Shown here: one piece after another, positions 5,184-32,876 of the stretch
How the letters are laid out: each line of letters starts with the position of its first letter
Position numbering within the stretch: position 1 is the first letter of the stretch
Origin: an uncultured Clostridium sp.
GTDB lineage: Bacteria; Bacillota; Clostridia; Clostridiales; Clostridiaceae
Reading direction: 5' to 3'
Length of the DNA: 34,452 nucleotides
Assembly (NCBI GenBank): GCA_903789665.1
Contig: CAIFEX010000029.1
Location: forward strand, 1 to 34,452
Translations under genes and position numbers: made by a program
The notes under the pieces: model-generated
What the model was told of the DNA's origin: nothing
Database searches by the model: none
Seen by the model: only the letters and a program-made list of their open reading frames with translations

Positions 5184-7082
5184 GTGAAGCTGCAATTTGT
5201 AGATGGATTAAATAAAAAATCTAATAATTCTGTACCGTTGGATTCTCAAGTAAATGTTTTGAACAATTTATTAAAGAAAATGATGGATAAGGGTACTATA
5301 AAATCTAGAATAACAAAATATAAACTTGAAAACTATGTGAATAGTAAAAATGTATTGGAAAGACTATATGCCTTAAATAAAATAGTGAGCGATGGAAAAG
5401 GCCTGGAAATTATACCTGATGAATCAGAGGCACAGAATGCTTTAGAGAATACTAATAATTGGATTGCAGAAATTTTGGCGGAGAGATATGTTAAAAATAG
5501 TATTGAAAAAGAAGTGGAAAAAAATCTTATAGAACGCCAAGATAAATATATGGATGATATAAGACTTAATATTATAAAAAAGCAAAAGGGCTGTGAAAAT
5601 GCAAAAACTTTAAAAAAATATGCGGAGCTTGAAATAATGGATTCCAAAACTTTCGGGAAAAATATACAGGAACTTTTGAGGCCTGAAAATTTTAAAGAGA
5701 TTGTAGGCCAGGAAAGGGCTATAAAATCGATGATTTCAAAAATTGCATCACCGTATCCGCAGCATATAATTTTATACGGACCTCCAGGAGTGGGTAAAAC
5801 TACAGCTGCCAGAATTGCACTTGAAGAAGCTAAAAAACTTAAATTCACTCCATTTGGCAGTGATGCCAAATTTGTAGAAGTAGATGGAAGCACATTGAGA
5901 TGGGACCCGAGAGAAATTACAGATCCTCTTCTGGGTTCTGTGCATGATCCTATTTATCAGGGAACAAAGAGGGATTTAGCAGAGACTGGAATACCGGAAC
6001 CGAAATTGGGACTTGTTACAGAAGCACATGGAGGAGTACTTTTTATTGATGAGATAGGTGAGCTGGATGAAATGCTTCAGAACAAACTTCTAAAAGTACT
6101 GGAAGATAAAAGAGTTCAGTTTTCATCTTCATATTATGATCCTGATGATGAAAATATCCCGAAATATATAAGATATTTATTTAAAAAAGGGGCTCCGGCA
6201 AATTTTTTACTTATAGGGGCTACTACACGGGATCCAAGTGAAATAAATCCTGCTCTTAGATCCAGGTGTACGGAAGTTTATTTTGAACCGCTTTCTACTA
6301 GAAGTATACAAAAAATAGTGGAAAATGCAGCTGAAAGACTTCATATAGAAATTGAAGATGGAGTATCCCAACTAATAAGTAAATATACTATAGAGGGAAG
6401 AAAAGCCGTTAACATATTATCCGATGCTTATGGGTACGCACTTTATAGCAATAAAATTGACAATTTAGGAGATAGGGTCTATATTTCAGTTAAAGATTTG
6501 CAGAGGATCATATCCATAAGTAGACTTGTACCATTTGAGGAAACTATTCCAAAAAGAAAATATGAAGTAGGACATATTTATGGACTAGGTGTATTGGGCT
6601 ATATTGGCTCTACTGTAGAAATAGAGTCAGTAGTGTTTAAAGCCAAGGAGAGTGGAAAGGGAGTTGTAAGATTCAATGATACGGCAGGCAGCATGGCTAA
6701 AGATTCGGTGTTTAATGCAGCTTCAGTTATAAGAAAGATTACTGATAAAGATATAGGCGATTATGATATCCATGTGAATGTAATAGGAGGAGGGAAAATA
6801 GACGGACCTTCAGCAGGAGCTGCTATTACGGTATGTATAATAAGTGCCCTTTTAAATAAACCTTTAAGACAGGATATAGCTGTAACGGGGGAAATTTCTT
6901 TAAGAGGTAACATTAAACCCGTAGGCGGTATTTTTGAAAAAATTTATGGGGCAAAGAGAAAGGGAATAAAGACCGTGTTGATACCTGAAGAAAATTTAAG
7001 AGATCTATCTAATAGTGTAGAGGATGTTGAAATACGCTCTATATCCAATGTTGAAGAACTTATGGATATGGTCTTTAAGTAG
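5184..7082 (+). CDS. lonC: LonC-type ATP-dependent serine protease
   Basis: Encodes 632 residues. It lacks the large N-terminal substrate domain of LonA and instead has a short coiled, charged N-terminus (about 1-165). The AAA+ module has Walker A GPPGVGKTTA (about 199-208) and Walker B GVLFIDEIGEL (about 284-294). The Lon protease domain has the catalytic Ser543 in GPSAGAA and Lys586 in EKIYGAKRKG, 43 residues apart as in E. coli Lon. GTG 5184 follows AAGGAGG by seven bases. It degrades unfolded or regulatory proteins; the specific substrates are unknown. The rplI-lonC-dnaB order is a clostridial trait. Confidence 0.92.
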   Translation: MKLQFVDGLNKKSNNSVPLDSQVNVLNNLLKKMMDKGTIKSRITKYKLENYVNSKNVLERLYALNKIVSDGKGLEIIPDESEAQNALENTNNWIAEILAERYVKNSIEKEVEKNLIERQDKYMDDIRLNIIKKQKGCENAKTLKKYAELEIMDSKTFGKNIQELLRPENFKEIVGQERAIKSMISKIASPYPQHIILYGPPGVGKTTAARIALEEAKKLKFTPFGSDAKFVEVDGSTLRWDPREITDPLLGSVHDPIYQGTKRDLAETGIPEPKLGLVTEAHGGVLFIDEIGELDEMLQNKLLKVLEDKRVQFSSSYYDPDDENIPKYIRYLFKKGAPANFLLIGATTRDPSEINPALRSRCTEVYFEPLSTRSIQKIVENAAERLHIEIEDGVSQLISKYTIEGRKAVNILSDAYGYALYSNKIDNLGDRVYISVKDLQRIISISRLVPFEETIPKRKYEVGHIYGLGVLGYIGSTVEIESVVFKAKESGKGVVRFNDTAGSMAKDSVFNAASVIRKITDKDIGDYDIHVNVIGGGKIDGPSAGAAITVCIISALLNKPLRQDIAVTGEISLRGNIKPVGGIFEKIYGAKRKGIKTVLIPEENLRDLSNSVEDVEIRSISNVEELMDMVFK

Positions 7083-7140: not shown

Positions 7141-8475
7141 ATGGATGTACCTTTTAGAAATATACCTCATAATATAGAGGCCGAGCAGAGTATAATTGGT
7201 TCAATGCTTATTGATAAAAACGCTATAGTTGAATCAATGCAGGTTTTAAAAGCTGAAGATTTTTATAAAGATTCTCATAAAGTTATATTTGAATCCATAC
7301 TTGATCTGTACAAGAAAGATGTTGCCGTAGATATTATAACGTTGACTGAGGATTTAAAATCAAAATCCAAACTTGAAGCTGCCGGCGGAGTAACTTATAT
7401 AAGTGAATTGAGCGGCTCTGTCGTGTCTACAGCAAATTTACAATCTTATATAAAAATTATAAAAGATAAATCCACCCTCAGAAAACTTATCAGAGCCTCT
7501 ACAAAAATAATTGAGGAATGCTATAATAATCAAAATGATGTAGAAAAAAACATCGATATGGCTGAAAAGTCCATATTTGATCTATCGAGGGATATGAAAG
7601 CATCAGATTTTGAACCCATGAATGTAGTACTTGAAAGAGGATTTTTGGAAATAGAAAGATTATTTAACAATAAGGGAGAAACTACAGGGATAGCTTCAGG
7701 ATTCAGAGAATTAGATGCAAAGACTTCTGGATTTCAAAAGGGGGATATGGTTTTAGTGGCAGCAAGACCTTCCATGGGTAAAACGACTTTTGCACTTAAT
7801 ATAGCAGAATATGCAGCTTTAAGGGAGGGGAAAAAGGTGGCCGTATTTTCCCTTGAAATGTCAAAGGAACAATTGGCATATAAATTGTTGTGTTCAGAAG
7901 CTCATATAGATATGTTAAAGCTTAGAACCGGAAACCTGGAAGATAAGGACTGGGAAAATATTGCCAGAGCTTCAGGACCATTAGCTGCTTCGAAAATCTT
8001 TATAGATGATACGGCAGGAATATCGATTATGGAAATGAGATCTAAATGCAGAAGGCTCAAAATGGAAGAGGGTATAGATATTATAATCGTGGATTATCTT
8101 CAACTCATGAGCGGAGGAAAAAGTTCGGAAAATAGACAGCAGGAAGTATCGGAGATATCAAGATCCATAAAGGCACTTGCCAAAGAAATGCAGTGCCCTG
8201 TTATTGCCGTATCTCAATTGTCGCGTGCTCCGGAGGCGAGGACAGATCATAGGCCTATGCTTTCCGATTTGAGAGAATCCGGTTCTATAGAACAAGATGC
8301 AGATATAGTTATGTTTTTATATAGAGATGAATACTACAATAAAGAAACGGAGGACAAAAATATAGCAGAATGTATTATTGCCAAACAGAGAAATGGCCCT
8401 ACAGGTACAATAAAACTGGCATGGATGGGTCAATTCAGCAAGTTTGGAAATCTCGATGTGATTCATCAGGAATGA
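7141..8475 (+). CDS. dnaB: replicative DNA helicase DnaB
   Basis: Encodes 444 residues, normal for DnaB, the hexameric 5'-3' helicase of the replisome. The N-terminal domain (PHNIEAEQSIIGSMLIDKNA) is followed by the RecA-like domain with Walker A ARPSMGKTT (Lys214), Walker B IIIVDYLQLMSGG and the DnaB motif SDLRESGSIEQDADIV. ATG 7141 was selected because AGGAG (7126-7130) lies ten bases upstream and MDVPFRNIPHNIEAEQ is the conserved start. In-frame TTG codons at 7105 and 7108 lack a site. No intein is present. Confidence 0.97.
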   Translation: MDVPFRNIPHNIEAEQSIIGSMLIDKNAIVESMQVLKAEDFYKDSHKVIFESILDLYKKDVAVDIITLTEDLKSKSKLEAAGGVTYISELSGSVVSTANLQSYIKIIKDKSTLRKLIRASTKIIEECYNNQNDVEKNIDMAEKSIFDLSRDMKASDFEPMNVVLERGFLEIERLFNNKGETTGIASGFRELDAKTSGFQKGDMVLVAARPSMGKTTFALNIAEYAALREGKKVAVFSLEMSKEQLAYKLLCSEAHIDMLKLRTGNLEDKDWENIARASGPLAASKIFIDDTAGISIMEMRSKCRRLKMEEGIDIIIVDYLQLMSGGKSSENRQQEVSEISRSIKALAKEMQCPVIAVSQLSRAPEARTDHRPMLSDLRESGSIEQDADIVMFLYRDEYYNKETEDKNIAECIIAKQRNGPTGTIKLAWMGQFSKFGNLDVIHQE

Positions 8476-23779: not shown

Positions 23780-24994
23780 TTAAGCGATTTTTAGTTCTAT
23801 TAAAATATCTTCCAAATTCACATTTTGCTTTGATTTTTCATATATAAAGCACACAAATGATTTTATCATCAGGTTGTTTAGATGTTTTTGAACTTTTCCT
23901 ATAGTGTTTAAAGTTTTATGACTAACAGTAATTCTAAATAATTCTAAGAAATTATAGGCTAAGAACACTATAAGAAAATAACGTTCAATAGATACAATGC
24001 TTCTAATTCTATATTTATCAAAGCCTAAATTACCTTTAAAATACTTATATGAAGTCTCTATACTCCATCTATGCAGATAGTATTCAAGTATAGTTTCGCT
24101 GTCTAATGAAATGTCGGTGGACATCAGATATACAGGAGATTCAAATCCATCTTTGCTTACTTCATAGCAAATGAGGACTTTAGCATTAGGAAATTTTGCA
24201 ACATTACCTTCGTAAGTATATATCTTATAGTTCTTACCCTTAACTGTAACGAGGTCCAGGGTATTTGGATCAATATATTTTTCAAACTCGGATAACTGAA
24301 GCGAAATTCCTAATGGAGATATTTTTCTGTTGGATTTAATTGCACCTATTAAGTGATAGCCTTTTAGTAAAGCGGTTTCTATTAAATTATTACTTGTATA
24401 CCATGAATCCATCAGACAATATACCTTTTTGCAATTAGATGGAGATTTAAATGAAATTATAAAATCTTTTGCGATATCGACCTTGGATTTAAAATCTTTT
24501 TTTACCCTGTTACAAAATTCCTCTTTGTAATAGGGCTGGTACTCCAAAGGTATTGATTTATCCGCCGTAACAAAATTTGAAGTAACAACACAGTGGGACC
24601 ACACGTTTTTGCTTTCAGTGTGGGAATAATTATATGACAATCCCTGCATCCTTTTTGCAGATTCCTTGGAATTTACAGTATCATCTATAACTAGAAATCC
24701 TACGGATTCAGGAGCAATGTTATTTTCAAGGAAAAAGTTTAAATAGTTAATTCTATTACGGTTAAGCAAGTTATCGTCCCACCTGGAACTGCTTAAAAAC
24801 TTACAAATACAACTTTTATCCTTCGCAGAATATACATTTTCTGCAATTTCGGATAAAGTTTTAGTGCCAGGTAAATTTATTAGTCCGTTAACTATGGTTG
24901 TTAAATGATTGAATTGTGGCTTAGACATTCCATAATTTACATCATTTAAGTAATTGTAAAGTTCGTTATTAATGGATACAATATTATTTGGCAT
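23780..24994 (-). CDS. DDE transposase
   Basis: Encodes 404 residues and is complete. The RNase H-like catalytic triad is visible: Asp104 in LVIDDTVNSK, Asp196 in CLMDSWYTSN and Glu313 in HRWSIETSYKYFKGNLG. SRWDDNLLNR before the first Asp and the YREK-like WSIETSYKYFK segment place it in the IS4/IS701 superfamily. IS701 members share the DDT motif, but I cannot settle the family without a search. There is no frameshift or internal stop. Confidence 0.9.
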   Translation of the reverse strand: MPNNIVSINNELYNYLNDVNYGMSKPQFNHLTTIVNGLINLPGTKTLSEIAENVYSAKDKSCICKFLSSSRWDDNLLNRNRINYLNFFLENNIAPESVGFLVIDDTVNSKESAKRMQGLSYNYSHTESKNVWSHCVVTSNFVTADKSIPLEYQPYYKEEFCNRVKKDFKSKVDIAKDFIISFKSPSNCKKVYCLMDSWYTSNNLIETALLKGYHLIGAIKSNRKISPLGISLQLSEFEKYIDPNTLDLVTVKGKNYKIYTYEGNVAKFPNAKVLICYEVSKDGFESPVYLMSTDISLDSETILEYYLHRWSIETSYKYFKGNLGFDKYRIRSIVSIERYFLIVFLAYNFLELFRITVSHKTLNTIGKVQKHLNNLMIKSFVCFIYEKSKQNVNLEDILIELKIA

Positions 24995-25311: not shown

Positions 25312-26241
25312 TTATCTACCTTGTCTCATTGCCTCTTCCAACTTTTCCTTACTGCCGTATTTATCCTTTATTACAGAATCGGTTAAAAATTTTTCCTCCA
25401 ATTTTCTATAATTAGGCAGCCCAATCAATTTGTTAAATTCATTAAAGGAAATCATATCTTTTTCAATACCTTTAGTAGTGCCGTCTTCTTTCAACTTTTT
25501 AAATAGACTTTTCAATGCTTTAGATACCGTATAAATACAAGAAAGAGGGAAAATCACCACATCAAATCCCATTTTGTGATATTCTGCTGCTGTCAAAGAT
25601 GGAGTTCTTCCATGTTCAATCACATTAACCAGTTTAGGTGCTTTTATGGATTTTGCTATAAGCTTTAATTCATCAACGGATTGAGGTGCTTCGATAAAAA
25701 TCAAATCTGCACCTGCCTTTGAGTACGCATTTCCTCTTTTTATTGCATCATCAATTCCATTTACAGCTCTGGCATCCGTTCTTGCTACAATAACTAGATC
25801 AGGATCTTCTTTAGCTTTTACTGCTGCTTCAATTTTCTTGCAGTGCTCTTCTATTGATATTACCCTTTTGCCTTCCATGTGGCCGCATCTTTTTGGCCAC
25901 TTCTGATCTTCAAAAAATATTCCTGATACGCCAGCTTGTTCAAATTCTTTAACCGTTCTCATTACACTCAATGCATTTCCATATCCTGTATCACCGTCTA
26001 CAAATAGAGGAATGTCTACCGCATTAGCAATATATTTTGCGTTTTCAGCCATTTCCGTCATTGTAACATAACCAACATCCGGCTGCCCCAATCTACTGGC
26101 GGCAGTTGGATATCCCCCCATTATAATTGCCTCAAATCCGGAATTTTCAGCTATTTTAGCTCCAAGTGCATCATATACACCCGGTATTATCAATATCTGA
26201 TCCTTTCCTATAAGCTGTTTTAATCTAGTTGCCTTTTTCAT
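25312..26241 (-). CDS. PEP mutase/isocitrate lyase superfamily C-C lyase (2,3-dimethylmalate or methylisocitrate lyase-like), copy 1
   Basis: Encodes 309 residues. These Mg-dependent barrel enzymes split 2-hydroxy-dicarboxylates into pyruvate or a related 2-oxo acid plus a second acid. Visible motifs are PGVYDALGAKIAENSGF, the metal-binding VDGDTGYGN (Asp82, Asp84), EDQ, and the lyase loop PKRCGHM (Cys119, His121), which separates lyases from PEP mutases. VARTDA and the C-terminal PLSCIY region also fit. The start was set at ATG 26241, preceded by GGAAGGGAG; a more distal in-frame ATG at 26280 lacks a site. A sigma-54 promoter lies about 85 bases upstream. Members differ in substrate by few residues, so dimethylmalate, methylisocitrate, other alkylmalates or oxaloacetate remain possible. 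Confidence 0.85.
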   Translation of the reverse strand: MKKATRLKQLIGKDQILIIPGVYDALGAKIAENSGFEAIIMGGYPTAASRLGQPDVGYVTMTEMAENAKYIANAVDIPLFVDGDTGYGNALSVMRTVKEFEQAGVSGIFFEDQKWPKRCGHMEGKRVISIEEHCKKIEAAVKAKEDPDLVIVARTDARAVNGIDDAIKRGNAYSKAGADLIFIEAPQSVDELKLIAKSIKAPKLVNVIEHGRTPSLTAAEYHKMGFDVVIFPLSCIYTVSKALKSLFKKLKEDGTTKGIEKDMISFNEFNKLIGLPNYRKLEEKFLTDSVIKDKYGSKEKLEEAMRQGR

Positions 26242-26324
26242 TTTAAAACTCCCTTCCAATTTGATTTTAGATTTTTTCATAAAGCCATTTAACTTTACAA
26301 TATAACTTTCCCCTGTTATACCTT

Positions 26325-26340
26325 AGCAACATCTATACCA
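26325..26340 (-). promoter_or_regulatory. sigma-54 promoter reading toward lyase copy 1
   Basis: The minus strand reads TGGTATAGATGTTGCT: a -24 GG, exactly spaced -12 GC, with TTGCT perfect at -12 (consensus TGGCAC-N5-TTGCW). The predicted start near 26314 leaves a leader of about 70 bases. The sigma-54 activator gene lies in the same cluster. Confidence 0.7.
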
Positions 26341-26420
26341 GGATTTTATCCATTCTGTAATTGTATTTAACATGCACTCTTAGACAATATATTTATGAAG
26401 TTCAGCTATTTGATATTAAT

Positions 26421-26464
26421 TTGTTTCATTTAATTTTAAACAAGTTTAAACATAGATGAAACAA
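26421..26464. promoter_or_regulatory. palindrome, likely binding site of the PrpR-type activator
   Basis: TTGTTTCAT (26421-26429) and ATGAAACAA (26456-26464) are perfect inverted arms. Nested inside on the same centre are TTTAAAC (26435-26441) and GTTTAAA (26444-26450). It lies between the two divergent sigma-54 promoters, about 40-60 bases before the plus-strand one and 80-95 from the minus-strand one, as expected for an upstream activating sequence shared by both. Confidence 0.7.
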
Positions 26465-26502
26465 ATATATGACAAACAACCTATTTCTTGCTTCTGTATT
26501 AT

Positions 26503-26518
26503 TGGCATGAATACTGCT
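26503..26518 (+). promoter_or_regulatory. sigma-54 promoter of the MFS-lyase operon
   Basis: TGGCATGAATACTGCT has TGGCA at -24 and CTGCT at -12 with the exact sigma-54 spacing. The predicted start near 26529 is about 50 bases before the transporter ATG. Confidence 0.75.
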
Positions 26519-26580
26519 ATATAGAAAAGTAAAATATATTTTTGCACAGAATGTATTTTAAAAATGGGGGGTAATTGTAA

Positions 26581-27954
26581 ATGGATAATGTCAATTCTCT
26601 TACAGCAAATAATCATTTTATTTCTGAAAGAATGGATCGTCTGCCGGTATCGAAGATTCATTATAAAATATTATGTTTAACAGGACTGGGGATGTTTTTA
26701 GATAGTTTCGATATATATCTAGCAAGCAGTGTATTGAGTTCTCTGTTAAAAAGTGGTTGGTCGACAATCACCTTAAATGCCACTTTTATTTCAGCATCAT
26801 TTATAGGACTTTTAATAGGAGCTTTACTCACAGGATTTCTTGGGGACAAATACGGCCGTAAATTTGTATATAGACTCGATCTGATGATTTTCGGCGGTGC
26901 ATCTTTAGTTGCAGCAATTTCCCCAAATATGACTTTTCTGATAGCGTGCAGGGGAGTCATAGGGATAGGTCTTGGAGCTGAAATAGTTACGGGGTATGCA
27001 CTTCTTGGCGAATTTGTACCTGCAAAAGTTAGAGGGCGCTGGGTCTCCATGTTGTCCTTGATAACCAACATAGCAGTACCTATTTCTGCATTGTTAGGAC
27101 TTATAATTATACCAACTATAGGTTGGAGATATATGTTCGTATTTGTAGGTGTATTTTCATTGATAGTATGGTATATGAGAAAAATGCTTCCTGAATCACC
27201 AAGATGGTATGAATCAAAAGGAAGATATGAAGATGCAGAAAAGACAGTAGAGATGTTTGAAAAAAGTGTTGAGAAAAGTGAAAATATAAAGCTTTCACCA
27301 ATAGATACATCCAAAGTTCACCAGAACAAAGAAAATGTTATTGCAACCGAGGGAAAATTTTCAGATTTATTCAAAGGCAAAATGTTATCCAGGACAATAG
27401 TAGGATGTATAACTTTAATAACTATAAACACACTTATATACACTTTTATAACTTGGGCTCCTACACTATTTTTAAAAAGCGGCATAAACCTTTCAAAGTC
27501 TCTAGGTTATACTACCATAATGATGATTGGCGCACCTCTTGGTGCAATAATAGGAAGCTTTATCGTAGATAGGTACGGTAGAAAATGGTGCTTGGTTTTA
27601 TCTATGATACTAGCGGGAGTAATAGGCTATGCATATCCTCTCCAAAGAAGTATGTCTATAATACTGATTCTGGGATTTTTATTGACAATACTTATATATA
27701 TACTGGTAACAGTAGGACTTGCTGTGTATGTACCTGAAATGTTCCCGACAAAAATAAGACTGAGAGGCACCGGCCTTGCAAATGCCGCTGGACGACTGGC
27801 TACTATATTCAGTCCCTATGGAGTTGCCTTCTTATTAACTAATTATGGTTCTAGACCTATATTCACATGCCTTGGAATACTTTTGGCACTTACTGCGTTT
27901 ATTATTGCTGTGTTTGGTGTAGAGACAAAACAAAAACCATTAGAAGAAATTTAA
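26581..27954 (+). CDS. MFS transporter, sugar/organic-acid porter type
   Basis: Encodes 457 residues with twelve predicted membrane segments in two halves split by a charged loop (about 210-255). Major facilitator signatures are present: GLLIGALLTGFLGDKYGRKFV between helices 2 and 3, LPESPRWYESKGR at the end of helix 6 (sugar-porter/aromatic-acid-symporter style), and the second-half copy SFIVDRYGRKWC. YVPEMFPTKIRLRGTGL follows helix 10. GGGGGG precedes ATG 26581. It sits between two lyase genes and under a sigma-54 promoter, so the cargo is probably the acid they cleave. Confidence 0.9.
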   Translation: MDNVNSLTANNHFISERMDRLPVSKIHYKILCLTGLGMFLDSFDIYLASSVLSSLLKSGWSTITLNATFISASFIGLLIGALLTGFLGDKYGRKFVYRLDLMIFGGASLVAAISPNMTFLIACRGVIGIGLGAEIVTGYALLGEFVPAKVRGRWVSMLSLITNIAVPISALLGLIIIPTIGWRYMFVFVGVFSLIVWYMRKMLPESPRWYESKGRYEDAEKTVEMFEKSVEKSENIKLSPIDTSKVHQNKENVIATEGKFSDLFKGKMLSRTIVGCITLITINTLIYTFITWAPTLFLKSGINLSKSLGYTTIMMIGAPLGAIIGSFIVDRYGRKWCLVLSMILAGVIGYAYPLQRSMSIILILGFLLTILIYILVTVGLAVYVPEMFPTKIRLRGTGLANAAGRLATIFSPYGVAFLLTNYGSRPIFTCLGILLALTAFIIAVFGVETKQKPLEEI

Positions 27955-27981
27955 AATTTTATTTTTTAGGAGGATGTAATT

Positions 27982-28848
27982 ATGAGTAGAGGAAAAATAA
28001 TAAAAGATTTTATAAAAAGAGGAGAATTACTAGTTTCACCAGGGGCATTTAACAGCATTTCTGCAAAGATAGTAGAACAAAGCGGTTTTGATTCTGTATA
28101 TATGACGGGTTATGGTGCAGCGGCCAATCTTTTAGGCTCACCGGATATAGGATTACTGTCGGCGTCTGAAATGATAAAACATCTGTCATATATGAGTGAG
28201 TCTGTAGATATACCTATAATTGCAGATGCAGATACTGGATACGGCAATGTCCTAAACATGTATAGAACTGTTAGGGAATATGAAAAAGCTGGAGCTGCTG
28301 CCATACAGATAGAAGATCAATGCTGGCCTAAAAGATGTGGACATATGGATGGGAAACAAGTCATATCTGCCGAGGAAATGGCTGCAAAAATCAGAGCAGC
28401 AGTAGATGCAAGACAAGATGAGGATACAGTTATCATAGCGAGAACTGACGCACTAGCTCCTATAGGATTTGACGAGGCAATAAGAAGGGGAAATTTATAC
28501 AAGGAAGCAGGAGCAGATGTAATATTTGTAGAGGCACCGCCTGATATAGACAAATTAAAACAGATACCTAAATTAGTAAAGGCGCCAATACTTGCCAATA
28601 TGATAGAAGGTGGAAAAACTCCTGTACTTTCGGCCGAAGAACTTCAAAATTTAGGATTTGCAATAGCTATATATCCTCTTTCCACTTTATACGTTATGAC
28701 AAAAGCTGTTAAGGATCTACTATATGAGCTCAAAAATACGGGCACCACTCAAGGAAAAATAGGGAACATGATAGATTTTCCAGAATTTAATGAGATTGTT
28801 CAATTAAGTAAAATTCGGAAAACCGAACAAAAATACAATAATATTTAA
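27982..28848 (+). CDS. PEP mutase/isocitrate lyase superfamily C-C lyase, copy 2
   Basis: Encodes 288 residues, paralogous to the minus-strand lyase along its length: SPGAFNSISAKIVEQSGF, ADADTGYGN (Asp82, Asp84), EDQCWPKRCGHM with the lyase Cys119 and His121, and IARTDA. Both copies keep the catalytic loop, so neither looks dead. Differences at substrate-contact positions (MTGYGAAANLLGSPDIG here against MGGYPTAASRLGQPDVG in copy 1) suggest different substrate preference. AGGAGG precedes ATG 27982, 27 bases after the transporter, so the two form an operon. Confidence 0.85.
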   Translation: MSRGKIIKDFIKRGELLVSPGAFNSISAKIVEQSGFDSVYMTGYGAAANLLGSPDIGLLSASEMIKHLSYMSESVDIPIIADADTGYGNVLNMYRTVREYEKAGAAAIQIEDQCWPKRCGHMDGKQVISAEEMAAKIRAAVDARQDEDTVIIARTDALAPIGFDEAIRRGNLYKEAGADVIFVEAPPDIDKLKQIPKLVKAPILANMIEGGKTPVLSAEELQNLGFAIAIYPLSTLYVMTKAVKDLLYELKNTGTTQGKIGNMIDFPEFNEIVQLSKIRKTEQKYNNI

Positions 28849-28856
28849 AAAACAGG

Positions 28857-28887
28857 GGGCTGTTGCAAATTTATTTTGCAGAAGCCC
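28857..28887 (+). repeat. TGCAAA hairpin, copy 2, after the plus-strand lyase
   Basis: GGGCT/AGCCC and TGCAAA/TTTGCA form a two-part stem with a small internal loop. It lies between the convergent lyase and activator genes and probably ends transcription, although no long T run follows on the plus strand. The core nearly matches 25278-25304. Confidence 0.6.
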
Positions 28888-28908
28888 ACTCTCTTATGTT
28901 CTCATTGT

Positions 28909-30786
28909 TTATGATATTCCATAATTTTTAATTTTACGCCATAATGTTGTTCTACTCATGCCAAGTCTTTTGGCAGTTTTCTCTCTGTTGCCGTTGAATT
29001 CAGAAAGGGCTTTTAAAATACGTTCAATTTCCAGCCTCTTATTTTGTGATATTTGTGTTTCATTTTTTTTGTATACTTTATTCACTAATTCCTCTGCGTC
29101 AAAACAATTCTTGTTTTCACTTCCAATAAAAATGGATATTCTTTTAAGAATGTTCTTTAATTCTCTTACATTTCCCCAAAAATCGTAAGAAGTAAGTAAT
29201 CTAAAAATTTCTTCCCATTTATTCTGGTATTTTTCATATAATCCGCTGAATTCATAAGATATAAGTTCTCTGGAAATTTCAGGTATATCTTGTCTTCTGT
29301 CTCTAAGTGGAGGTATATCGAGTTCAAGAACATTCAATCTATAATAGAGATCTTCCCTGAATCTCTTATTTAATACTTCTTCCCATAGGTTTTTGTTAGT
29401 AGCACTGATTATCCTCACATTTATGGGAATTATCTTGTCACTTCCAATTCTCATGACTTCTTTCTCCTGCAAAACCCTTAAAAATCTTGATTGAAGACTT
29501 TTGGGCATTTCAGCTATTTCGTCTAAAAAAATAGTTCCATTGTGTGCCAGCTCAAATAGGCCAATTTTACCCCCTTTTTTTGCTCCTGTGAAAGCTCCTT
29601 CTTCATATCCAAACAATTCTGATTCCAAAAGATTTTCAGGCAGTGCTGCACAATTCACAGCAACAAATGCTTCATTTTTCCGTTTGCTTTCATTGTGAAT
29701 ACTATTGGCGAACAGCTCTTTTCCAGTTCCAGATTCACCCGTAATTAAAACTGTAAAATCACTTCTGGCATATTTTTCAGCTAGAGTTATACAGTCTTTT
29801 ATAGCCCTAGATTTGCCTTTTATATCGTTAAAGGTATATTTAGCTACAAGACCCCTTGTGTAAATTTCTCTTCTGACTTTACGTTCTGAATTCTGTATGG
29901 ATTTTATATCCTGGAATGAAGCAACAGCTCCTTTAAACTGTCCGCCTATCATCAGAGGAACCCTGTTTGTTAAAATTGTCTGATTGTTTACTTTTTGTAT
30001 CTGATTTATTTCTTCCTTTTTTGTAATTATTATTTTATCAAGTCTTGTATTTTCTATAGTCTTATTAACAGGTTTCCCTATTACATTTTTTCTGTTTATT
30101 CTCATAATCTTTTCGGCCATAGGATTATACACCTGTATGATATTATTCTCATCTGTTGCCATAATTCCACAATATGCATAATCCAAAATAGCATTCAACT
30201 GGCTATTTCTATATTTCTGCTTTCCTATGGATTCCTGTAATTGTACAGCCTGGCCTATAGAACTTATTATACTGTCTTTAGAATAAATAAAAATGGAATT
30301 CATGCCAATTTCATCACAGGCATCACATACCATACTTGAACCTATTACGTTATTAATTCCTGATTTTTTTAAAACATGAATTATATTTTTAAGCTGGTTA
30401 TAATTATTAAAGCATTTTGAAATTATATTAATATTAAATATATTTTTATATGAATTAAAGTCAATTATAGGGTTTTTATATGTCAATATAGCTACATTAT
30501 TTGAATTTTTCTTTGCTGTGACAAGATTTTCCATTATACTGAAACCTGAAATTTTTATATCAACAATAGGTGCATCCGGAATATTGTGCTTTAATATTTC
30601 CAGGTTACTACTTCCACCCACAAATACATCAACTTTATCCTCCTTCCACAGTTTTTTAGCAATATTTACAGTATCTTTAAATTTTGAATTTATCACATAT
30701 ATCTTTTTTAACATTTCTCCATCAATATTTGAATATATAGATTTAGTAAGTCTATCATAACTCATAACTGCAATTCTGGGTTTCAT
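28909..30786 (-). CDS. PrpR-type sigma-54-dependent transcriptional activator
   Basis: Encodes 625 residues. Residues 1-190 form a PrpR-N/propionate-activator-type sensor ([24 protein letters not shown]). A PAS domain follows at about 195-300 ([20 protein letters not shown]). The AAA+ domain has Walker A GESGTGKE (350-357), the sigma-54-contacting GAFTGA loop (397-402) and Walker B IFLDEI (419-424). A Fis-type helix-turn-helix closes the protein ([19 protein letters not shown]). ATG 30786 follows AAAGGATG; an upstream in-frame ATG at 30816 lacks a site. It is convergent with lyase copy 2 and is very probably the activator of both sigma-54 promoters at 26325-26518. The ligand is probably a 2-hydroxy-dicarboxylate such as methylcitrate-like acids. 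Confidence 0.93.
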
Positions 30787-30790
30787 AAAA

Positions 30791-30973
30791 TCATCCTTTG
30801 TTAAATATAATATCAATAATAAGGGAAAAAACTGTTTTTTCCGTTTCTCTGTATATCAGATTTTTCTTGTCCAAAATACATCCCTTTATAACCTTTACCG
30901 CATTAGCCACATAAAAATCGTTTTCATAAACACACGATATTTCTTCATCTCTTGCAGATGCTGTGCTTGCCAT
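30791..30973 (-). CDS. possible small protein upstream of the activator
   Basis: A 60-residue open frame beginning [20 protein letters not shown] and ending just four bases before the activator ATG, with the activator ribosome binding site inside its end, as in a coupled operon. Its own ribosome binding site is poor (GGAG twelve bases away), and I recognise no family. A GGAAAAAA/TTTTTTCC hairpin (30824-30842) lies within it. It could equally be leader sequence. Confidence 0.3.
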
Positions 30974-31856: not shown

Positions 31857-32876
31857 TTAAATTTTGCTCAAGTTTATCTGTTCGAAAAATTTGGGATGAA
31901 TTATTATTTCAGTGATTTTATTGATAAATTTGGAAGAAAGCAGGATTACAATAAGCAGTGAAAGTATGATAATTGATATTTCACTTACAAAGGAATTTAT
32001 ATAATCAAAAAAGTTGTATTTAACCAGTGTTTTAATAATGAAGCCGTGAAATCCATATACGGTTATGGTTCTGGATCCTAATTTTGTAAAAAGCAAATTT
32101 TTATCTGGAATTAAAATTAAAATAATGATAGATATAATTACAGCTATAATATATGTAGATATACGCACTATATATTCAGGACAATTCGGACTGTCTAGCT
32201 GTGAATAGGAATAACTGCCGTAAAACCACCTATAATCGATTTTATCATTTAACAGATGTATCAGCAGGAAGAGAATTAATAAACCTAGAACAGCATATTT
32301 TTTTCCAATATATTTTCTTACAGTATCTATATAATGTTCTTTGCAGAAGTATCCCATTAAAAAATATGGGAAAAAAGTTATAGTCCTCGACAAGCTCAAA
32401 TAGTATCCAATATTATTATCATATCCGCTTAATATGGAAATAGCAAAGGTTATTATAATTGAGTACTTTATTTTGGAGAAATAAGGCAATATGAGATTCC
32501 ATATGACAAGTGAAAGAAGATACCAGGTAATCCAGTATGGATTGACAAAAGTAATTTTAAAATTTTGCTCTTTAAGTACATAGATATTGAATAGACAATA
32601 CAATAATTGAAAAATAATGTAATACATAAGAATACTTGTGATTTTTGAAAAAAATTTTTTGTCACTGCCCATATTCTTTGAAAAATAGCCTGAAATAAAA
32701 ACAAATAAAGGCATATGAAAAGAATATATAAAATTATATATTAATTTTATATTGGGGTATGAACCAATTAACGGCTCAATAGTATGCCCAACTACTACCA
32801 AGGTGATTAAAAGAAATTTTAAATTATCAAAATAACAGCTTCTGCATTTTGATGAATTTATATTAAGCTCCTCCAT
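31857..32876 (-). CDS. membrane acyltransferase 3 family protein
   Basis: Encodes 339 residues, about ten membrane segments, of the acyltransferase-3 type (OafA/WecH and fucose 4-O-acetylase group) that transfer acetyl or succinyl groups to sugars of the cell surface. The family start is FDNLKFLLITLVVVGHTIEP with the conserved His, followed by FIYSFHMPLFVFISGYFSKN, whose FHMPLF segment is characteristic. No extra periplasmic SGNH domain is attached. TGGAG lies about seven bases before the ATG. Acceptor unknown; no glycan gene cluster is adjacent. Confidence 0.85.
   Translation of the reverse strand: MEELNINSSKCRSCYFDNLKFLLITLVVVGHTIEPLIGSYPNIKLIYNFIYSFHMPLFVFISGYFSKNMGSDKKFFSKITSILMYYIIFQLLYCLFNIYVLKEQNFKITFVNPYWITWYLLSLVIWNLILPYFSKIKYSIIITFAISILSGYDNNIGYYLSLSRTITFFPYFLMGYFCKEHYIDTVRKYIGKKYAVLGLLILFLLIHLLNDKIDYRWFYGSYSYSQLDSPNCPEYIVRISTYIIAVIISIIILILIPDKNLLFTKLGSRTITVYGFHGFIIKTLVKYNFFDYINSFVSEISIIILSLLIVILLSSKFINKITEIIIHPKFFEQINLSKI

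Follow-up and report, generated by a model that had tools for sequence, protein, structure and literature searches.

We describe a four-gene locus on a 34,452-nucleotide stretch of DNA from an uncultured Clostridium sp. (assembly GCA_903789665.1, contig CAIFEX010000029.1; hereafter the window), a contig of a 3.03-Mb genome that is 99.99% complete. The locus encodes two lyases of the phosphoenolpyruvate (PEP) mutase/isocitrate lyase (ICL) superfamily, here called LyaA and LyaB, a transporter of the major facilitator superfamily (MFS) and a PrpR-type σ54 activator. We consider it fairly likely that these genes form a PrpR/σ54 module that imports a 2-alkylmalate, for which 2,3-dimethylmalate or citramalate would be the type, and splits it into pyruvate and a short acid, the substrate being predicted. 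The proposal builds on gene content, active-site residues, clade tests, the lack of citrate-synthase-family and PrpD genes and recurring promoter elements, all of which were computed, and from these we infer substrate, transport, the PrpR_N ligand, DNA binding and the division of labor between the two lyases.

The two lyases are distinct in sequence from methylisocitrate lyases

A first-pass annotation of the window had listed two intact lyases with KRCGH loops on opposite strands, an MFS transporter and an activator with PrpR-N, PAS, AAA+ and Fis domains and a GAFTGA motif. Translations and Pfam matches confirm this description. PEP_mutase matches both lyases (5.5e-52 and 5.8e-50), MFS_1/Sugar_tr matches the transporter, and PrpR_N, PAS, Sigma54_activat and HTH_8 match the activator; GAFTGA and the PKRCGH loops of both lyases can be read directly in the translations. 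With PrpR_N, an AAA+ domain carrying GAFTGA and a Fis-type helix-turn-helix, the activator has the full make-up of a PrpR-type σ54 activator. The layout, earlier given as five genes, comprises four, all of them open and intact: lyaA is divergent from the MFS gene and lyaB, and the activator gene is convergent with the latter two.

LyaA and LyaB share 50% identity, and both retain the catalytic set D58, D85, D87, E115, K121-R-C-G-H125, R158, E188 and N210 (PrpB numbering), that is, the metal-binding and catalytic residues and the gating-loop Cys of ICL/PEP-mutase superfamily lyases. This Cys is the catalytic acid of such enzymes, as stated in an excerpt of PMC7609661. The gating loops themselves are nearly identical (DQKWPKRCGHMEGK in LyaA, DQCWPKRCGHMDGK in LyaB). 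On the substrate side, R126, T212, F214 and R241, which we take to have a role in methylisocitrate lyase (MICL), are replaced by M, I, H or G, and Y. Both proteins share the changes G119W, R126M, T212I and R241Y with the petal death protein of carnation (1zlp), the nearest solved structure for either of them, ahead of MICL. With the prpB model (TIGR02317) the lyases score 308.5 and 307.2 bits, under its cut-off of 354.4. The placement among characterized members that the first-pass annotation had called for likewise separates them from MICL: approximately unbiased (AU) tests, which included only three MICL references, rejected a clade with these references for LyaA (p 0.0013) and for LyaB (p 0.009). 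Judged by their sequences, LyaA and LyaB are not methylisocitrate lyases, because they score below the prpB cut-off, lack the substrate-side MICL residues and are rejected from the MICL clade. The petal death protein is an alkylmalate lyase, and as the nearest characterized relative among solved structures it points to a 2-alkylmalate or 2,3-dimethylmalate lyase. These comparisons support placing LyaA and LyaB closer to the alkylmalate lyases than to those for methylisocitrate. The earlier claim that the locus imports and splits a 2-hydroxy-dicarboxylate is supported in part, with the substrate itself a prediction.

We also asked how the two lyases relate to each other. LyaA falls into a 21-row group (support 99/90) together with six TRAP-linked lyases and six LyaA-type lyases of Fermentithermobacillaceae-like loci. 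In the first lyase tree, LyaB forms a clade with its counterpart from Clostridium luticellarii (locus L003) and with lyases of loci L004 and L005 (100/98). Of the 84 loci collected (see below), 13 have no row in this tree, nor does the second lyase of locus L006, a longer overlapping ORF having been selected in each case, and long-branch warnings were issued for 4iqd, the fungal 2,3-dimethylmalate lyase (DMML) and LyaA; for the AU tests against the MICL references, 22 rows were removed and two references added, giving 65 rows. Local duplication of a single lyase was rejected as the origin of the pair: a clade of LyaA, LyaB and the lyases of L003, L004 and L005 has an AU p of 0.012, and identity between the two reaches only 50%. 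By these data the two lyases are paralogues that separated long ago. Their pockets differ at four PrpB positions, Y43 (Ile in LyaA, Tyr in LyaB), S45 (Gly, Thr), H113 (Phe, Gln) and F214 (His, Gly). At all four, LyaB agrees with the lyase of locus L097, and the fungal DMML agrees with LyaB at positions 43 and 45 (Tyr and Thr). The first-pass annotation had placed the difference near the substrate loop and suggested two substrates or stereoisomers; the loops differ little, but because the paralogues are old and their pockets differ, two substrates or isomers are plausible.

The genome lacks citrate-synthase-family and PrpD genes

No methylcitrate gene had been noticed near the lyases, and none was seen among the neighbors scanned here. 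The same holds genome-wide: profile searches returned no match to Citrate_synt (positive, as a control, in 13 of 14 genomes), to MmgE_PrpD (7 of 14) or to PrpF (PF04303; 2 of 14). The complete prp cluster whose presence elsewhere in the genome would have spoken for ordinary methylisocitrate lyases was thus not found, and the methylcitrate synthase and dehydratase of the known route are missing by these profiles, a result with which a Re-type synthase or AcnD route would be compatible. Since citrate-synthase-family and PrpD genes are absent genome-wide, the view of the locus as a stand-alone module, already put forward in the first-pass annotation, is supported. Nor was a methylitaconate isomerase of the PrpF family, as expected for nicotinate fermentation, found in the genome, and the scan of the window revealed no hydratase or mutase. 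With LyaB as query, the only matches in its own genome (E up to 1e-5) are LyaA and LyaB. Aconitase-family open reading frames (ORFs) were found only elsewhere, in a leu-type operon and beside an isocitrate dehydrogenase (IDH)-like ORF (operon names by reading).

PrpR_N occurs in three places of this genome, including the window. The other two regulators adjoin sugar-acid and alcohol-dehydrogenase-type ORFs, and no prp gene was recognized beside them (ORFs of at least 180 aa, by reading). Because of this company, a PrpR_N activator need not signal propionate here. The activator of the window scores 453.4 bits with propionate_PrpR (TIGR02329), under the cut-off of 499.2.

A predicted σ54 promoter and candidate activator sites precede the transporter gene

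The divergent region of 339 bp between lyaA and the MFS gene contains a σ54-type –24/–12 site (TTGGCATGAATACTGCT) directed towards MFS-lyaB, with a single mismatch to the Clostridiales consensus TTGGCATNNNNNTTGCT as given in the sections of PMC6615313 consulted. A second one-mismatch site of the window, at 7873, lies inside an ORF. When the window was shuffled 200 times by mononucleotides, 26 of the resulting sequences contained any such site. A looser pattern matched 11 times against 5.84 expected, and the match at 26503 was the sole exact one. Towards LyaA we found a promoter-like site with two mismatches (CTGGTATAGATGTTGCT), which is weak taken alone, as the window holds 10 sites with up to two mismatches. 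Two abutting 21-bp elements, TGTTTCATTTAATTTTAAACA and AGTTTAAACATAGATGAAACA, are predicted as activator sites; they end 38 bp upstream of the σ54 site, and the same spacing is seen for the corresponding pair of C. luticellarii (L003 6409-6450). The coordinates of all features are listed in Table 1.

Among the 12 regions scanned in total, 10 contain a σ54 site with up to two mismatches towards the lyase/transporter operon. In these ten regions, GTTTCA/TGAAAC half-sites occur 22 times against 2.6 expected, and none of 500 shuffles reached 22, an enrichment that is optimistic since the motif was picked after five regions had been viewed and the ten regions were picked by hand. GTTTCA/TGAAAC is the commonest hexamer in this set and the sole one found in all ten. 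The set consists of the regions with a σ54 site, so the L006 region and the L007 region 6600-6760 were left out; the bounds used for L007, L065, L066 and L069 differ slightly between promoter scan and enrichment count. It includes L098, whose regulator ORF resembles the AAA+ part of PrpR and was not counted as PrpR, whereas L073, with PrpR and a lyase, lies outside the promoter scan.

The clostridial motif TGT-N10..12-ACA was considered and dropped in favor of GTTTCA, because neither of its two matches in the window is mirrored in the four further regions compared. The exact pattern TGTTTCA-N4..26-TGAAACA occurs in two places of the genome, one between ctpA- and ftsX-like ORFs and one next to a galactarate-dehydratase-like ORF (by reading), and neither fits clearly as a member of the regulon. 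The half-sites of the window are spaced more widely than this pattern permits, and degenerate sites elsewhere would escape it. The second of these two elements (contig C18, L102 4331-4365) has an oxidoreductase-like ORF on its other side and is perhaps the site of another such activator.

Table 1. Genes and predicted regulatory sites of the lyase locus (window positions).
Feature	Position	Strand	Remarks
LyaA, PEP-mutase/ICL superfamily lyase	25312..26241	-	309 aa from likely start; longest ORF, to 26280, 322 aa
Weak σ54 promoter-like site towards LyaA	26325..26341	-	2 mismatches
Candidate activator site 1	26422..26442	.	predicted
Candidate activator site 2	26443..26463	.	predicted
σ54 –24/–12 site	26502..26518	+	1 mismatch to Clostridiales consensus
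MFS transporter	26581..27954	+	457 aa
LyaB, PEP-mutase/ICL superfamily lyase	27982..28848	+	288 aa
PrpR-type σ54 activator (PrpR_N, PAS, AAA+, Fis HTH)	28909..30786	-	625 aa

The first ATG of lyaA is at 26280. Because a strong Shine-Dalgarno sequence (AAGGGAG) precedes the ATG at 26241, the coding sequence probably starts there. The activator, whose listed ORF opens with TTG at 30816, starts at the ATG at 30786, as proposed earlier. Two neighboring genes were noted. An IS701-family transposase gene (23780-24994, minus strand; score 182 bits, cut-off 150) separates the lyase locus from a gene for an HI0933-like flavoprotein. On the other side, a gene for an Acyltransferase_3 membrane protein (31857-32876, minus strand) adjoins the locus and shows no sign of membership.

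Related lyases are patchily distributed and recur beside PrpR genes

A scan of named genomes returned 149 relatives, of which the best 80 were kept; with four further loci this gives 84. Within the genus, the lyase was found in 3 of 13 genomes (E up to 1e-20), and in a sample of the class in 5 of 391 (E up to 1e-60), the genome of the window included in both. The distribution is patchy, as these two counts show. The module is also present in C. luticellarii, with identities of 83% for the MFS transporter, 88% for LyaB and 79% for PrpR, and with rhamnose-type genes (by reading) in place of lyaA. In a second member of the genus (L091), the PrpR gene is divergent from a single lyase gene and the MFS carrier is a different one.

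Using tblastn, we found PrpR in 10 of the 84 loci, LeuC and LeuD in 10, TRAP parts in 9, SSS carriers in 7, PrpF in 2 and at least two lyases in 7; 22 loci have at least one of the sought context genes or a lyase pair. As many contigs are short, these counts are lower bounds. All seven multi-lyase loci also contain LeuC, LeuD and an SSS carrier, and six of them PrpR. A PrpR module that pairs an A-type lyase with one of another type occurs both in the window and in a second lineage. Taken together with the promoter scan, these data support that the link of PrpR and σ54 to such lyases recurs in other genomes. The earlier suggestion to look for the same layout elsewhere thus succeeded for this link and failed for the exact gene order, which is not conserved: C. 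luticellarii lacks LyaA, and other loci have other transporters and additional LeuCD-like genes.

Two loci differ in their gene company. The lyase of L097, 49% identical to LyaB, is encoded near a B12-binding mutase, a PrpF-family protein, a GlmL-type protein, LeuCD and subunits of a molybdenum hydroxylase. We take this make-up to be that of the nicotinate pathway ending in 2,3-dimethylmalate lyase, so that by its gene company L097 fits a nicotinate-fermentation-like cluster. The lyase of L096 (52%) has as neighbors PrpR, a MatC/CitMHS-type carrier, an aconitase-family large subunit, a LeuD-like small subunit, PrpF and a PrpD-family gene.

Other arrangements were observed as well. The fullest module seen is that of a Thermoanaerobacteraceae metagenome-assembled genome (L004 4216-14205), where three lyases and two LeuCD-like pairs, the second of them recognized by reading, line up with PrpR and an SSS carrier. 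In five Fermentithermobacillaceae-like loci (L006, L007, L065, L066 and L069), two divergent lyases are accompanied by PrpR, by LeuCD-like genes and by an SSS carrier, which in most of them is preceded by a small ORF of 86-98 aa. Cyanobacterial loci (L020, L030-L035, L037-L039, L041, L048 and others) encode relatives 46-49% identical to LyaB and show none of the sought context genes.

Alternative explanations

Several observations weigh against an alkylmalate module comprising all four genes. LyaA is placed only broadly in the tree and is not found in a genome presumed to be that of C. luticellarii, which gave a single lyase match, and the IS701-family transposase is 318 bp from LyaA. None of the sought context genes occurs in 62 of the 84 loci. 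Two of the 12 promoter regions lack a σ54 site, namely L006 7700-8210, which overlaps a lyase coding sequence, and L007 6600-6760, and the half-site enrichment is optimistic for the reasons given above. A dedicated LeuCD-like hydratase was not found in the genome of the window, so that the route from an unsaturated acid suggested in other genomes is missing here. The nicotinate reading of L097 draws on gene company because its LeuC (717 against 611) and LeuD (263 against 246) exceed the cut-offs of isopropylmalate dehydratase models, its PrpF protein stays below cut-off with both of its models, and no NCBIfam model matches its putative enamidase at 1e-15. Finally, production of methylcitrate by a Re-type citrate synthase is conceivable.

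The alternative that survives best, possible yet on balance doubtful, restricts the module to MFS, LyaB and PrpR and regards LyaA as a later neighbor with an unrelated substrate, perhaps of TRAP-linked origin and acquired via mobile DNA. The C. luticellarii module without LyaA, the six TRAP-linked lyases in the group of LyaA, the nearby transposase and the weakness of the promoter-like site of LyaA all agree with it. It does not explain why a divergent pair of one LyaA-group and one other lyase is kept beside PrpR and LeuCD-like genes in L006, L007, L065, L066 and L069; as these are five loci of one other lineage (the second lyase of L006 being outside the tree), the pairing recurs. LyaA may still be a later addition to the module.

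The name PrpR suggests another possibility, in which the lyases are divergent methylisocitrate lyases in a methylcitrate route of non-homologous enzymes (Re-type citrate synthase and aconitase). Indeed, prpB is the top NCBIfam model of LyaA and LyaB, propionate_PrpR is the best model of the regulator (453 bits), and HMGL-like, aconitase-family and IDH-like ORFs stand side by side in the genome (names except aconitase by reading). We regard this as improbable, given that lyases and regulator fall under the respective cut-offs, that R126, T212, F214 and R241 are replaced, that AU tests reject the MICL clade and PrpD is absent, and that the other two PrpR_N regulators are without recognized prp neighbors.

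More improbable still is a function on oxaloacetate, of acetylhydrolase or decarboxylase type, giving oxalate and acetate, or pyruvate. The petal death protein, fungal oxaloacetate acetylhydrolase (OAH) and oxaloacetate decarboxylase are all relatives of the lyases. At the P236 position, however, OAH has Ser (3lye, by reading), which we assume to be its marker and which is also present in the petal death protein, whereas both lyases of the window have Pro like DMML; the importer and the LeuCD partners of some relatives likewise suggest a branched acid. That the lyases are phosphonate enzymes (PEP mutase, phosphonopyruvate hydrolase or carboxyphosphoenolpyruvate (CPEP) phosphonomutase) is hardly credible: automatic annotation often gives such names to this family and CPEP phosphonomutase ranks second among the NCBIfam models for both lyases, but scores lie far under the cut-offs (CPEP 283/289 against 420, PEP mutase 147/129 against 320, phosphonopyruvate hydrolase 136/135 against 374), both proteins keep the KRCGH loop of lyases, and no phosphonate is named among the best 25 of 45 transporter matches or the best 25 of 35 regulator matches.

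Proposed mechanism

In the alkylmalate module that we favor, the PrpR_N domain would bind a small carboxylate, whereupon the activator would occupy the two abutting 21-bp sites and fire the σ54 promoter of MFS-lyaB, and perhaps also, less strongly, a promoter reading leftward into lyaA. The MFS carrier would import a 2-alkylmalate or an acid readily turned into one. The lyases, presumably Mg-dependent, would then cut the C2-C3 bond with Cys as the acid, so that 2,3-dimethylmalate would yield propionate and citramalate acetate, each beside pyruvate. Judged by context, these two are the leading candidates, and we give dimethylmalate a chance of about one in three. LyaA and LyaB would probably take different alkylmalates or stereo- or regio-isomers.

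A far more speculative idea, which we mention as a long shot, is that the pair exists for an unsymmetric dialkylmaleate. Ethylmethylmaleate, for example, is released from decaying chlorophyll or haem. It could be hydrated on either carbon, with one lyase per regio-isomer yielding pyruvate and butyrate or 2-oxobutyrate and propionate. PrpR/σ54 modules with LeuCD-like hydratases would then constitute an unrecognized anaerobic route for tetrapyrrole-derived acids, and the module of the window would be its hydratase-less form. That modules with both an A-type and a second-type lyase recur, and that the pockets differ, is compatible with this idea.

If the alkylmalate module is real, alkylmalates would join the compounds usable by such clostridia, and the released propionate could enter acid metabolism. 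The module offers a testable regulon, defined by the σ54 site and the GTTTCA half-sites, and a short list of substrates.

Comparison with known systems

Methylisocitrate lyase and phosphonomutase are names often given to genes of this lyase family, and PrpR_N activators are often called propionate regulators. For the present locus, whose genome matches neither the citrate synthase family nor PrpD, both kinds of name seem inappropriate. With PrpB and the prp operon, the module shares the superfamily, the catalytic residues and a PrpR-type activator. It differs in lyases that score below the model cut-off, have the MICL residues replaced and belong to a separate clade, and in the lack of a citrate-synthase-family or PrpD gene. 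The petal death protein resembles the lyases of the window in its W-P-K-[RK]-C-G-H-M loop and in Tyr at the R241 position, but has Ser instead of Pro at the P236 position; it is a plant protein, a 2-alkylmalate lyase that is not known to belong to an operon or to have an activator.

Nicotinate fermentation in Eubacterium barkeri, reportedly described by Alhapel in 2006, includes a 2,3-dimethylmalate lyase. LyaB shares Tyr and Thr at positions 43 and 45 with the L097 lyase and the fungal DMML, the E. barkeri enzyme being likened by its pathway and not by its sequence. Unlike nicotinate fermentation, the genome of the window has no PrpF-family gene, and its lyase stands with an importer and PrpR.

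Clostridial σ54 regulons with PrpR_N activators and the TTGGCATNNNNNTTGCT promoter have been described (PMC6615313, in part), with TGT-N10..12-ACA as the commonest activator motif in contrast to GTTTCA/TGAAAC here. The word lyase is absent from the main text of that paper, and its Table 1 lists no regulon with such a lyase; in the passages of PMC6925170 consulted, dmdA is mentioned solely within a list of genes. In the part of the open-licence literature covered, we found such a module nowhere described. The components are of kinds already known, whereas the substrate and their stand-alone combination are predictions.

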